Below, piece by piece: positions 16,751-30,506 of a DNA stretch of 36,539 bases. The notes beneath the pieces were generated by a model, which worked only from the letters and a program-made list of their open reading frames with translations, did no database searches and was not told where the DNA came from. The stretch spans positions 1 to 36,539 of the forward strand of contig JANYAY010000007.1 of NCBI GenBank assembly GCA_025361065.1, in the 5' to 3' direction. The position numbers and the translations under genes are program-made. This stretch comes from Deltaproteobacteria bacterium (GTDB lineage Bacteria > Desulfobacterota > Syntrophia > Syntrophales > Smithellaceae). Position 1 is the stretch's first letter. Every line of letters starts with the position of its first letter.

Positions 16751-16844
16751 CTCCTGGGTCCCGAATAGCTTCGCTTTCGGGATCAATTCCACTAACACTT
16801 CAACCTTCGCTGCACTCGTTTTCAGTGAGTGTCATTGACTTAAA
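16751..16844. repeat. Dispersed palindromic repeat, copy A
   Basis: About 94 bases that match copy B (24679-24793) with roughly ten mismatches and one 21-base gap. It contains CCCGAA...TTCGGG and CACTC...GAGTG inverted repeats. Shared landmarks are TGGGTCCCGAATAGCTTCG, TTTCGGGATCAATTCCACT and GAGTGTCATTGACTT. The right part overlaps the last codons of cysKS and provides that protein's tail and its TGA stop. No transposase is nearby, so it looks like a REP- or MITE-type element (inference). Confidence 0.85.
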
Positions 16845-19151
16845 ATGCCAAACTGTCCCTTGCGGCATATCCAGAAGTTCAACATTCATCGCGGCCAGCT
16901 GCGACCTCAAAATATCTGCTTTCTGCCACTTCTGCTCCTTGCGGGCAGTTTCTCTCTCTTCTATTAAATCCGCTATTTCTTTCGGTACCGGCAGCGCCTC
17001 AAAATTCATTACTCCGATCACTTCATTGATATTTTCCAGCGCCTCCAATATCTTCCGGCAATCATTTTGATTTATGGTTCCCCTACTCAAGGGAGAATTA
17101 ATTTTACCGATAAAATCAAAAAGCACGGCCAAGGCGCCGGCGATATTCAAATCATCATCTAAAGCCGCGGTAAAGCCGTTTTTAAGATCGTAAATCAGCT
17201 GATCCACATCTGCATAACCATTGCCACCATTATGAACAGACTTAAGCCGGCAAATAAACATGTCGAGTTTTTTGACATTATTCCTTGCCGTTTCCATTGC
17301 CTCTGCGGAATAATTAAGAGGTTTACGATAATGCAACCCCAGCAGGAAAAAACGCACATCTCTGCCCGAATAACCTTTTGCGAACAATTGAGATAAAGGC
17401 AGGGCATTATTTAATGAACGGGACATCTTTCTACCTGCGACCATCACCAATTCGGCATTAAGCCAGTAATTTGCGCCGCTCTTGCCCGAAAAAGCTTTGT
17501 TGACAGCTAATATATTTTCACAATGCGGGAAAACTTCATCAACACCACTAATGTTAATATCATAAAGTGCACCCAGATACTTATGAGAAATAGCAGCACA
17601 TTCTATATGCCATCCCGGCCGTATATTGCCCCATTTTGTTTTGTAATATATACCCCTTTTTAATTCTCCCAAACTTGCCCTTTTTAAAAGGGCAAAGTCC
17701 ATCGGGCTGTCTTTTTCATAATCATCGAGGTCAATAGTTTTAGCCTGTCTGGTTTTTTGCAGATTTACATTGGAAAGAAGCCCGTAATCGGCTAATTTGG
17801 ATATGTCGTAATAAACTGAATGCAGCTTTTCGTAGGCGTAATTTTTATCGACTAATTTCTCGACGATTTTGAGCATCTCATCAACATTTTCAGAAGCTTT
17901 AATATAAATATTATCCTGGCGAATATTCAAAGATTCCGCATCCTGCAAAAAAACCTGCAAATATTTATTCGTATAATCGGCAAGATCCAGGCCTTCTTTT
18001 TCCGAACCTTTTATAGATTTATCGGTAAGATCAACAATATCAACTATATGCTTAACCGCGTAACCCTGATAAATCAAATAGCGGCAAACCATATCGGCTA
18101 CCACCAGGCGGCGGTAATTACCCATATGAGGGGCATCGTGGACAGTAGGTCCACATGTATGCATGAGAATTTCTCCGGCATTAACGGGTTTGAAAAAAGT
18201 TTTCTGGCGCTGCAGAATATTGTAAAGACAGAAAGTCGATGCTTCCTCTTTGACAGCAAATAATTCCGTACTTAAATACCTCTCTCCGCTGTCCGGGAAA
18301 ATCACAACTATCAGGCCTTCCTGCATTTGCAATGCTTTTTGAGCGGCAATAAACATTGCAGCGCCGGAACTCATGCCGGCCATAATACCTTCCTCACGGG
18401 CCAACCTCCGCGCCGTGGCAAAAGCATCCTCATCCAGAATATTCACCTTTTCATCAAGGCACTTCTTATCAAATATACCCGGCCGGTAAGACTCGCGCAT
18501 ATTCTTCAGCCCTTGGATCTTGTGCTTCAAATATGGTTCCACACCGACAATTTTAATTTGCGGATTTAATTCTTTGAGCCTGCGGGAAATTCCCATAGCA
18601 GTACCGGTAGTACCGAGACTTGATACTACCATGGTGACGGCGCCGTCAGTTTGATCCCAGATTTCCTGCGCTGTCCCATAGTAATGAGCGGCAATATTAT
18701 CTTCATTATTGAATTGGTCGGGACCAAAATATTTGCCGGTATTTTCGCGGAGCATTTTGTATGCTACTTCAATAGCACCATCAGTTCCCTGATTGGCAGG
18801 CGTAAAATACAGCTCAGCGCCCAGAGCACGTAAAATTTTCTTTCTCTCATCACTTACCGACTCCGGCAACGTCAGACATAATTTATATCCTTTGGCAGCG
18901 GCAATCATGGCCAGACCAATACCCGTATTGCCACTGGTCGCCTCCAGTATAATTTTATCGGGTGTTAACTCTCCTCTTTTCTCCGCCCGCTCAATCATGA
19001 ATAATGCGGTGCGATCCTTAATCGATCCGCCGGGATTGGCGCTCTCCATTTTCGCCATGATCTTTATCTTTTTATTGGGATTAAGCCGGCAGATTTCCAC
19101 CAGGGGCGTATTGCCGATGCTATCAATAATGCTTTTATAAGATTTATTCAT
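16800..19151 (-). CDS. Fused cysteine synthase / cysteinyl-tRNA synthetase
   Basis: One uninterrupted 783-residue protein joins two enzymes. Residues 1-300 are cysteine synthase (CysK/CysM): PLP lysine 45 in NPGGSIKDR, TSGNTG at 72-77, GTTGT at 180-184, SSGAA at 261-265. Residues 306-769 are cysteinyl-tRNA synthetase: Cys333 in HTCGPTVHD, HMGN at 342-345, WHIEC with Cys518, His543, KMSRS at 575-579, and a family-typical end (PQGTVW). The zinc ligand equal to E. coli Glu238 is Ile547; Cys544 is nearby. The last 14 residues come from a palindromic repeat. The protein could pass newly made cysteine to tRNA, or make persulfides. I cannot tell whether another cysS exists. Confidence 0.9.
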   Translation of the reverse strand: MNKSYKSIIDSIGNTPLVEICRLNPNKKIKIMAKMESANPGGSIKDRTALFMIERAEKRGELTPDKIILEATSGNTGIGLAMIAAAKGYKLCLTLPESVSDERKKILRALGAELYFTPANQGTDGAIEVAYKMLRENTGKYFGPDQFNNEDNIAAHYYGTAQEIWDQTDGAVTMVVSSLGTTGTAMGISRRLKELNPQIKIVGVEPYLKHKIQGLKNMRESYRPGIFDKKCLDEKVNILDEDAFATARRLAREEGIMAGMSSGAAMFIAAQKALQMQEGLIVVIFPDSGERYLSTELFAVKEEASTFCLYNILQRQKTFFKPVNAGEILMHTCGPTVHDAPHMGNYRRLVVADMVCRYLIYQGYAVKHIVDIVDLTDKSIKGSEKEGLDLADYTNKYLQVFLQDAESLNIRQDNIYIKASENVDEMLKIVEKLVDKNYAYEKLHSVYYDISKLADYGLLSNVNLQKTRQAKTIDLDDYEKDSPMDFALLKRASLGELKRGIYYKTKWGNIRPGWHIECAAISHKYLGALYDINISGVDEVFPHCENILAVNKAFSGKSGANYWLNAELVMVAGRKMSRSLNNALPLSQLFAKGYSGRDVRFFLLGLHYRKPLNYSAEAMETARNNVKKLDMFICRLKSVHNGGNGYADVDQLIYDLKNGFTAALDDDLNIAGALAVLFDFIGKINSPLSRGTINQNDCRKILEALENINEVIGVMNFEALPVPKEIADLIEERETARKEQKWQKADILRSQLAAMNVELLDMPQGTVWHFKSMTLTENECSEG

Positions 19152-24678: not shown

Positions 24679-24793
24679 CTTCTGGGTCCCGAATAGCTTC
24701 GTCCTGTATCTACAGGACTTCGCTTTCGGGATCAATTCCACTTACACCTCAAGCTTCGCTATGCTCGCTTTTAGCGAGTGTCATTGACTTTAA
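24679..24793. repeat. Dispersed palindromic repeat, copy B
   Basis: About 115 bases that match copy A (16751-16844). It carries an extra 21-base segment with a perfect palindrome, GTCCTGTA-TC-TACAGGAC, placed in the loop of the CCCGAA...TTCGGG repeat. A second perfect hairpin is CTCGCT-TTT-AGCGAG. Base changes between the copies keep this last stem paired. The right part overlaps the end of the DUF4416 gene and supplies its last codons and TGA stop, in the same frame and orientation as copy A does for cysKS. Confidence 0.88.
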
Positions 24794-25306
24794 CTGCAAT
24801 AAATATGTCGCTCTTATTTTACCCAGCATTAAAAGCTGCTTCTCATCCGCGTAATCAGGATACGTCCACGGTAAAGAACAAAACTTCTTATTCTGGTAGA
24901 ACAATGTCAAATCGGCATAAATGCCGTCGCGTAAGTAAGGCCGGTGCGCATAACCTTTACCGGTAGCCAGAATTAAGTGACCTTTGGATATATAACCGGG
25001 ATCAATATTGACTCGGCGTTTGCCTTCCTCAGTAAATTCGTTTTCTATATTATTGGTGGCAAGCTTGATGTCAGGCAGTGCCTCCGGTCTTACCAGTTCT
25101 TCCATTGACAAAAAGCGCCGTACTAAATTTTCACCCATTTCCCTGCGGTAATAATCTGTATAATCAAAAAGTACCGGGTCGCTGAGAAAATCAGGTTGAC
25201 CATAATAAACCGACAACATTGCTATGGTTTCATCCAACTGCTCAGCAGTTGACGCAAAAACACTAAATATCAATTTTACAGGCTCGGCGGGAGTCGGTTT
25301 GCTCAT
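24749..25306 (-). CDS. DUF4416 family protein
   Basis: A 185-residue protein of the DUF4416 family, function unknown. Readable blocks include FDYTDYYRREMGENLVRRFL, RRVNIDPGYISKGHLILATG and KGYAHRPYLRDGIYADLTLF. It is predicted to be soluble. The start codon overlaps the stop of the heptose kinase gene by four bases (ATGA). The family often sits near yicC and gmk in Deltaproteobacteria (from memory). The last residues, KSMTLAKSEHSEA, are encoded by palindromic repeat copy B and probably replaced or extended the native end. Confidence 0.82.
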   Translation of the reverse strand: MSKPTPAEPVKLIFSVFASTAEQLDETIAMLSVYYGQPDFLSDPVLFDYTDYYRREMGENLVRRFLSMEELVRPEALPDIKLATNNIENEFTEEGKRRVNIDPGYISKGHLILATGKGYAHRPYLRDGIYADLTLFYQNKKFCSLPWTYPDYADEKQLLMLGKIRATYLLQLKSMTLAKSEHSEA

Positions 25307-30109: not shown

Positions 30110-30171
30110 CCTCGCGAGCTCGCTCGCGAGGTATGAAATAAACGTCATTATATCGCGAGCGAGCTCACGAG
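30110..30171. repeat. Palindrome cluster rich in CGCGAG
   Basis: CCTCGCGAG-CTCG-CTCGCGAGG (30110-30131) is a perfect 9-bp hairpin. A 19-base segment (30111-30129) also recurs inverted at 30153-30171 with one mismatch, so the whole region can fold as one long hairpin. It is part of a repeat-rich stretch between uspA and the zinc-ribbon gene. Confidence 0.8.
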
Positions 30172-30203
30172 AATTAACGCTCGTCCCGCGTTAGCGGGAT
30201 TAA
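30171..30203 (+). repeat. 33-base repeat, copy 1, upstream of the zinc-ribbon gene
   Basis: This matches copy 2 (30474-30506) at 30 of 33 positions. The core TCCCGC-GTTA-GCGGGA is a hairpin, and both copies begin GAATTA and end GGGATTAA. The two copies flank the small zinc-ribbon gene in the same orientation. Confidence 0.8.
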
Positions 30204-30440: not shown

Positions 30441-30473
30441 AAAACCGGGAAAGTCCCGAAGATAGGCTGCGAA

Positions 30474-30506
30474 GAATTAGCGCTCGTCCCGCGGGAGCGG
30501 GATTAA
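30474..30506 (+). repeat. 33-base repeat, copy 2, downstream of the zinc-ribbon gene
   Basis: Second copy of the 33-base element, with three changes relative to copy 1. Its hairpin is TCCCGC-GGGA-GCGGGA. A small separate hairpin, CGGGA-AAG-TCCCG, lies between the zinc-ribbon stop codon and this copy. Confidence 0.8.

Follow-up and report, generated by a model that had tools for sequence, protein, structure and literature searches.

A short palindromic repeat contributes the last 12 residues and the stop codon to each of two unrelated proteins, a cysteine synthase-cysteinyl-tRNA synthetase fusion (CysK-CysS) and a DUF4416 protein. Both are encoded in the window, the whole stretch of 36,539 nucleotides analysed here, which forms contig C103 in a draft genome of 3.95 Mb. 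We consider this repeat, with a probability of roughly 0.78, to be a mobile palindromic element, non-autonomous and tolerated at gene ends, that belongs to Smithella and its relatives, and the protein tails look like by-products of the frame in which it landed.

The two window copies, both on the minus strand, share 86% identity over 80 nt without a gap, and copy 2 is 21 nt longer, the excess lying in its second hairpin (Table 1). Both genes enter the repeat at a codon AAG, which is followed by TCA ATG ACA CTC and so on to TGA; in this one common frame, CysK-CysS ends as WHFK followed by SMTLTENECSEG and the DUF4416 protein as QLK followed by SMTLAKSEHSEA. The Pfam domains end ahead of the tails, at residue 168 of 185 in the DUF4416 protein and at residue 757 of 783 in CysK-CysS, where the match lies just below the cut-off. 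The alignment and the translations thus uphold the sequence-only reading, which had traced the like tails of two unrelated proteins to the same repeat in the same orientation and frame, and its limits for the first copy (16751-16844) were correct to about 2 nt. It had also taken PQGTVW as the family-typical end of CysS, which needs correction: the native end lies three residues further on, as W-[HR]-[FY]-[KR]-stop, a form shown by 13 of the 19 CysS orthologues in the own family that have no sense insertion. The fusion itself has a near-full-length query match in 34 of the 40 genomes searched. The window also holds another small hairpin repeat (AGAATTARCGCTCGTCCCGCG..AGCGGGATTAA) at 30170-30203 and 30473-30506, whose 18-base core matches 5 of 417 loci, representing three separate places in the own genome (L015 with the overlapping L007 and L023; L045; L412), which also carry the main repeat or its relatives.

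Table 1. Repeat copies, their hairpins and the genes that end in them, in window coordinates (R1 and R2 are the covariance models described in the text)
Feature	Position	Strand	Description and basis
Repeat copy 1	16753..16843	-	91 nt, 3' end of cysK-cysS; R1 match 102.4 bits, E 2.8e-19; alignment A1
Copy 1, hairpin 1 with GA/GA internal loops	16782..16839	-	R2 match 16783-16839, E 5.3e-15; folds
Copy 1, hairpin 2 (CCCGAA...TTCGGG)	16760..16781	-	folds
12 repeat-encoded codons of cysK-cysS (SMTLTENECSEG)	16803..16838	-	stop codon 16800-16802; translation
cysK-cysS fusion gene	16800..19151	-	783 aa; PALP + tRNA-synt_1e + DALR_2
Repeat copy 2	24681..24792	-	112 nt, 3' end of the DUF4416 gene; R1 match 106.7 bits, E 3.0e-20
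Copy 2, hairpin 1	24731..24788	-	R2 match 24732-24788, E 9.8e-16
Copy 2, hairpin 2, including an additional perfect inner stem (GTCCTGTagatACAGGAC)	24688..24730	-	fold
12 repeat-encoded codons of the DUF4416 gene (SMTLAKSEHSEA)	24752..24787	-	stop codon 24749-24751; translation
DUF4416 gene	24749..25306	-	185 aa; Pfam domain = residues 9-168

The repeat is found well beyond these two places. A blast search of the own genome gave 14 matches, which represent 13 copies, and R1, a covariance model built from 12 copies, gave 26 matches there at E 1 or better. R2, a wider model of the first hairpin built from 48 diverse copies, recovered at least 57 hairpins in the same genome at a threshold of E 0.1, from the 150 candidates scored out of 627. 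A hand-made structural scan returned 417 hairpins, not deduplicated, from about 1.9 Mb of fetched DNA, which is redundant and was mostly picked because it contains the repeat; the reversed sequence of this DNA returned 1. Given the 13 copies, the 57 hairpins and the ratio of 417 to 1, the repeat is not a product of chance. With stricter filters, R1 matched in 29 of 59 genomes (own included), with up to 66 matches per genome. In a phylum-wide sample 4 of 297 genomes were positive, all from the own family, of which six members were listed and the other two gave none; one true copy lies outside the family, in the same order (G035, locus L069). A pattern scan of named genomes found at least 112 stretches, under titles of Smithella, Syntrophaceae or Deltaproteobacteria among the matches listed. 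The scan pattern matches 55 of 122 known copies, so that the named-genome and viral scans miss many. There were 0 matches in viral contigs searched with one pattern and in phages and plasmids searched with one copy as query, and viral or plasmid spread was dropped as a candidate on these grounds. In draft genomes, several copies are found close to contig ends (L141, L143, L146, L153, L167, L170), which suggests that the repeats break assemblies and that the copy numbers are underestimates.

The repeat has a conserved and elaborate architecture. In this genus the unit is about 90-150 nt long and comprises two hairpins; the consensus reads TTAA-ATCAAT-GA-CACT-CGCT-GA-AAAC-GA-GC-GNA-GC-GAA-GTTT-GA-AGCG-TT-AGTG-GA-ATTGAT, followed by hairpin 2, with CCCGAA, a loop and TTCGGGATCCAGA. 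In hairpin 1, ATCAAT pairs with ATTGAT, CACT with AGTG and so on, with GA standing opposite GA. Across 48 diverse copies the outer GA/GA internal loop is kept in 46 and the inner one in 16, and the triloop has the GNA form, which is very stable in DNA mini-hairpins, in 33. The flanking pairs covary (GACT/AGTC, CACT/AGTG, AACT/AGTT; TAAT/ATTA, CAAT/ATTG, TAGT/ACTA), in many copies the entire inner arm differs yet still pairs, and in hairpin 2 one pair is altered on both sides, from A-U to G-C, in 4 of 12 copies. Over 48 divergent copies, 95.8% of cells are paired, against 23.6-34.3% in slid controls, and changes on both sides account for 243 cells, with 16 of 18 pairs showing one; the alignment used (A5: 301 matches, 284 past the length filter, 65 after thinning, 48 used) omitted irregular copies, a bias in favour of structure.

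The core hairpin is strand-specific. As RNA, the strand with the GA/GA loops folds better than the opposite strand (-26.4/-24.3, -46.1/-39.3 and -13.9/-8.7 kcal/mol), and as DNA only slightly better. An argument for DNA folding from the scarcity of G-T pairs was dropped, as their frequency of 1.9% compares with 3.3% in tRNA stems (p = 0.13; 63 tRNAs, 40 usable rows, 38 kept). A TIGR guide-RNA array was likewise abandoned as a candidate because the two arms of the repeat pair with each other. A TPP riboswitch is located at L131 924-1016, outside the element and directly upstream of a triple tandem hairpin array.

The extent of the mobile unit can be read from three nested insertions in relatives, in which 77-78 bp interrupt a host sequence that resumes afterwards: 78 bp between ACGAAA and TTTGAAGCG (L199), 78 bp between CTCGCTGA and GAGCAAG (L161) and 77 bp between AGTTG and AATTATCCC (L180). 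The nested unit runs from TAATGA to GGGA or TTGGA, and no target duplication is evident in the three cases, in two of which 2 nt or less could hide. The uninterrupted host was read from family relatives (exact stretches in other loci) and not from an ancestor, and because no fresh empty site between near-identical strains was caught, the right end and the reading without duplication rest on these three cases. Elements whose second hairpin has TTGGA at its end recur at one point of the host hairpin, between G and AATTATCC or near it, as about eight of the junctions printed show (junction matches were obtained for 47 elements). Hairpins also cluster with a fixed polarity: a neighbour lies within 160 nt on the same strand for 71 of 313 unique hairpins and on the opposite strand for 2 of 313. 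Several hairpins (L185, L230, L210) have the same tiny insert, AACCTRAAGGTCACT, inside them or alongside, as though a still smaller element had landed there.

Orthologues of the two window genes provide the comparison with and without the repeat. For each gene, 30 loci were taken as the best matches among the 40 genomes searched, own included. At the end of cysK-cysS a sense hairpin is present in 3 of 30 loci (G000, G003 and, degenerate, G002), an antisense relative in one (G008), and none in 26; the CysS of G001, from the same genus, ends WHYR and stop, 12 residues earlier. The insertion and the tail in the DUF4416 gene are common to G000 and G001 and absent from G002, while in G003 the insertion lies about 14 nt further on and in a different frame; antisense relatives occur in 2 of 30 loci (G022 and, weakly, G016 with E 0.0045), and 25 have no such hairpin. 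Orthologues without the repeat end at the native stop. In other genera, antisense relatives lie directly past the CysS or DUF4416 stops (L292 2100-2156, weak; L295 1400-1456; L324 1420-1476), and because of them we conclude that the ends of these two genes have been hit more than once. Within the genus the CysS tail drifts, as SMTLTENECSEG, SMITAENKFNES and TKTVPENERSEV, and the hairpin scores drop along with it (64.9, 27 and 36 bits).

These loci also bear on the left edge of the element. Of the 19 own-family CysS orthologues that lack a sense insertion, 13 have the word TTTAA ahead of the stop, G001 not among them; GTTAAA is common in DUF4416 orthologues, with GTTGAA in G002; and CTTTAA stands in L209, compared with the occupied L030. 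Judging from the sequences of these three sites, the TTAA-like left edge seems to belong to the target rather than to the element. The edge reads TTAA[AG]T before CAATGA and is T-rich before TAATGA, and in CAATGA-type copies the TTAA-like form is found alike in 51 free and 30 stop-coupled copies.

Coupling to gene ends extends far beyond the window. The 301 model matches, obtained with 80 of the at least 112 pattern loci in the input, reduce to 253 unique copies, and 63 of these hold the stop codon of an upstream gene on the same strand, at element positions 2-56, as called with a simple codon-usage gene caller of our own. The commonest stop positions are 4 (16 copies), 9 (9), 22 (8), 44 (8), 12 (5) and 5 (5), and another 23 copies show one up to 56 nt ahead of the element. 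Read in antisense, the element contains the ends of 3 genes, and 20 more genes end up to 56 nt past it. The first stops of the consensus fall at 12, 4 and 44 in the sense frames and at 16 and 86 in two antisense frames, the remaining one having none. Gene ends may accept the element almost only in sense because two of the antisense frames lack early stops. A position inside a gene was scored for three of the 253 copies, in each case apparently through a reading-frame miscall.

The long frame that yields a KSMTL-type tail or a recognisable derivative accounts for nine entries from seven distinct predicted genes, namely CysS, DUF4416 and five more, one of them doubtful with 38 codons; one stops early, at position 32. 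Other frames yield ..NDTR, ..SDTR or ..SETR, or else run into a TAA at the edge of the element; this TAA is the native stop in the comparison of L030 with L209 and is inferred to be so at the remaining sites. The stop-coupled ends include those of what we take to be FlgK-like, FabF-like and histone-like proteins, and also genes from a glycine-cleavage region. Among the 63 stop-coupled genes, 38 have a homologue match, but the label N in that comparison also covers further fetched copies of occupied loci, and two pairs were used from it: CysS with G001, and L133 with L167, where the stop-coupled protein of L133 extends 15 residues beyond the match of its homologue. The tails are probably without importance as such.

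Taken together, these observations favour an element whose small unit is likely moved by an enzyme acting in trans. Insertion would take place just 3' of a pre-existing TTAA-like sequence, at the few sites available without evident target duplication, and copying would perhaps proceed on the single-stranded hairpin. Sense insertion in the last codons or in a TAA stop would be tolerated because the left arm stops every frame within 44 nt, and the landing frame would decide whether the gene retains its native stop, is lengthened by a few residues (..NDTR, ..SETR) or acquires a KSMTLAENERSEV-type tail. Both searches that the sequence-only reading had proposed, for further gene ends carrying the repeat and for tail-less orthologues, support its suggestion of mobile tail donation. 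That the two proteins inherited their tails from ancestral forms, or that the likeness is due to chance, is next to impossible: the CysS tail is common to three genomes and the DUF4416 tail to two, but the orthologues examined in other genera are tail-less, and the same DNA stands at many other places, mostly not coupled to a stop.

For the means of movement, the most serious candidate is a REP-like element each of whose hairpins serves as a substrate for a Y1 (HUH) transposase from the RAYT or IS200/IS605 group, and is moved single-stranded and inserted 3' of a short target word without target duplication. IS200/IS605 elements insert without duplication, and the nested insertions, the one-strand structure, the shared orientation within clusters, the TTAA-like word left of CAATGA-type copies and the frequent GNA triloop are all consistent with such a process, as is the presence of Y1 genes in 26 of 36 genomes. 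We nevertheless hold it to be possible and somewhat short of even odds. The canonical feet looked for, GTAG and GTGG, are absent at the left edge; the copy-rich genomes G014 and G016 have no Y1 gene, and Y1 presence does not track copy number. Around 30 of the 74 Y1 matches, R1 found hairpins within 1.5 kb of none and R2 of two (about 440 and 1020 nt away); these 30 loci are not directly flanked by the repeat, and a Y1 transposase was dropped as the obvious mobiliser. Replication-strand bias by third-codon skew was likewise not seen (68 of 134); the intergenic skew of 99 of 134 is confounded by the element itself, which is in the count. No recurrent mobile gene stands beside the copies among the 40 largest clusters of 1747 predicted proteins, which comprise ordinary families and the Y1 loci fetched on purpose, and the Y1 and neighbour-protein searches found no mobilising enzyme. 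A classical DDE insertion sequence could alternatively have given rise to the repeat as a MITE, duplicating TTAA or TA as IS1380 and IS630 do. The TTAA-like left flank and the short size agree with this, but we think it quite improbable, as neither TTAA nor another word follows consistently past the right end of own-genome copies (a few have TTAA within about 10 nt), the nested cases lack an evident duplication, the ends are two separate hairpins instead of simple inverted repeats, and the surroundings of the fetched copies showed no full-length insertion sequence with such ends.

A structured RNA at message 3' ends, acting in stability or processing and duplicated and selected as RNA, would account for the better RNA folding of the GA/GA strand and for the many sense copies at stop codons. 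It is unlikely: among copies located between genes of the same direction and uncoupled to a stop, 52 are sense and 34 antisense, without a clear sense bias (p = 0.066), divergent gaps account for 50 of 224 copies, and degenerate copies persist (CysS of G003). Rfam 15 gave no notable match in 16 loci, with a sub-threshold lncRNA and a sub-threshold snoRNA as the only matches apart from the TPP riboswitch outside the element, and there is no terminator-like site on the sense strand within the two window copies; the antisense strand of copy 2 has two. A bolder form of the mobile-element reading would make the repeat a distinct class of mobile hairpin, defined by a two-hairpin unit of 77-78 bp, fixed polarity, lack of duplication, nesting, an inner arm as recognition code and a three-frame stop cassette. 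Here the inner arm, repeatedly rewritten while the GA/GA frame, the loop and the flanking pairs are kept, would be a code for different mobilising proteins, and the left arm would secure safe landing at gene ends and thereby generate new C-terminal tails. This we put forward tentatively, as less probable than not.

Small repeats that fuse to genes are known from other bacteria. RU-1/ERIC, a 127 bp enterobacterial repeat, has been described to fuse to gene 3' ends, in one case removing the normal stop and lengthening an amidase, and to have TA ends and TA target duplications (PMC2759123). The Smithella repeat resembles it as a small mobile palindrome with many intergenic copies and 3'-end fusions, but consists of two hairpins, shows no evident duplication, has stops in all sense frames near its left end and occurs in unrelated bacteria. 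RU-1/ERIC is a closer precedent than the Rickettsia palindromic elements (RPE), which are described as palindromes of 105-146 bp that add in-frame coding sequence (PMC2229807). The sequence-only reading had pointed to RPE, and the likeness holds in that a mobile palindrome adds coding sequence, but not in the place of insertion, which here is the gene end: RPE lie within protein and RNA genes, whereas the 253 copies include no credible intragenic one and none with in-frame read-through inside a gene, and coding copies otherwise end the gene. No Rickettsia host appears among the titles listed, and the repeat is set apart from RPE by description.

REP sequences and REPINs are likewise described as numerous extragenic hairpins (PMC12306157, PMC6006769), and for E. 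coli 446 of 4,072 REPs are given as no more than 15 nt away from a stop codon (PMC12306157). The Smithella repeat differs from REP and RAYT systems in the canonical foot, although atypical Y1 classes with other feet, e.g., CnGA, are on record (PMC6006769), in its same-strand clusters and in its distance from Y1 genes. With the miniature elements of the IS200/IS605 group, as portrayed in the same source, it shares hairpins and insertion beside a short target word (PMC6006769). Here, the TTAA-like word pre-exists in orthologues at three sites and the nested cases have different words; unlike IS200/IS605 elements, the repeat occurs in G014 and G016 without a Y1 gene, and no full-length element with its ends turned up among the fetched loci. 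We found no prior description of the repeat in this group in the open-licence PubMed Central literature. The best reading is that of a new family for a known kind of event, as tail donation is known from RU-1/ERIC and RPE.

Smithella relatives are reported to matter in methanogenic alkane breakdown (PMC5606693), and their draft genomes are fragmented, with some copies of the repeat at contig ends. The repeat offers a countable case of mobile DNA rewriting protein ends, with 63 gene ends in several genera, for two of which (CysS and DUF4416) repeat-free orthologues were closely compared. The position of its stop codons suggests a possible reason why gene ends tolerate the element almost only in one orientation, and since the covariation is clear and the arms are exchangeable, how small mobile hairpins are recognised becomes a testable question.
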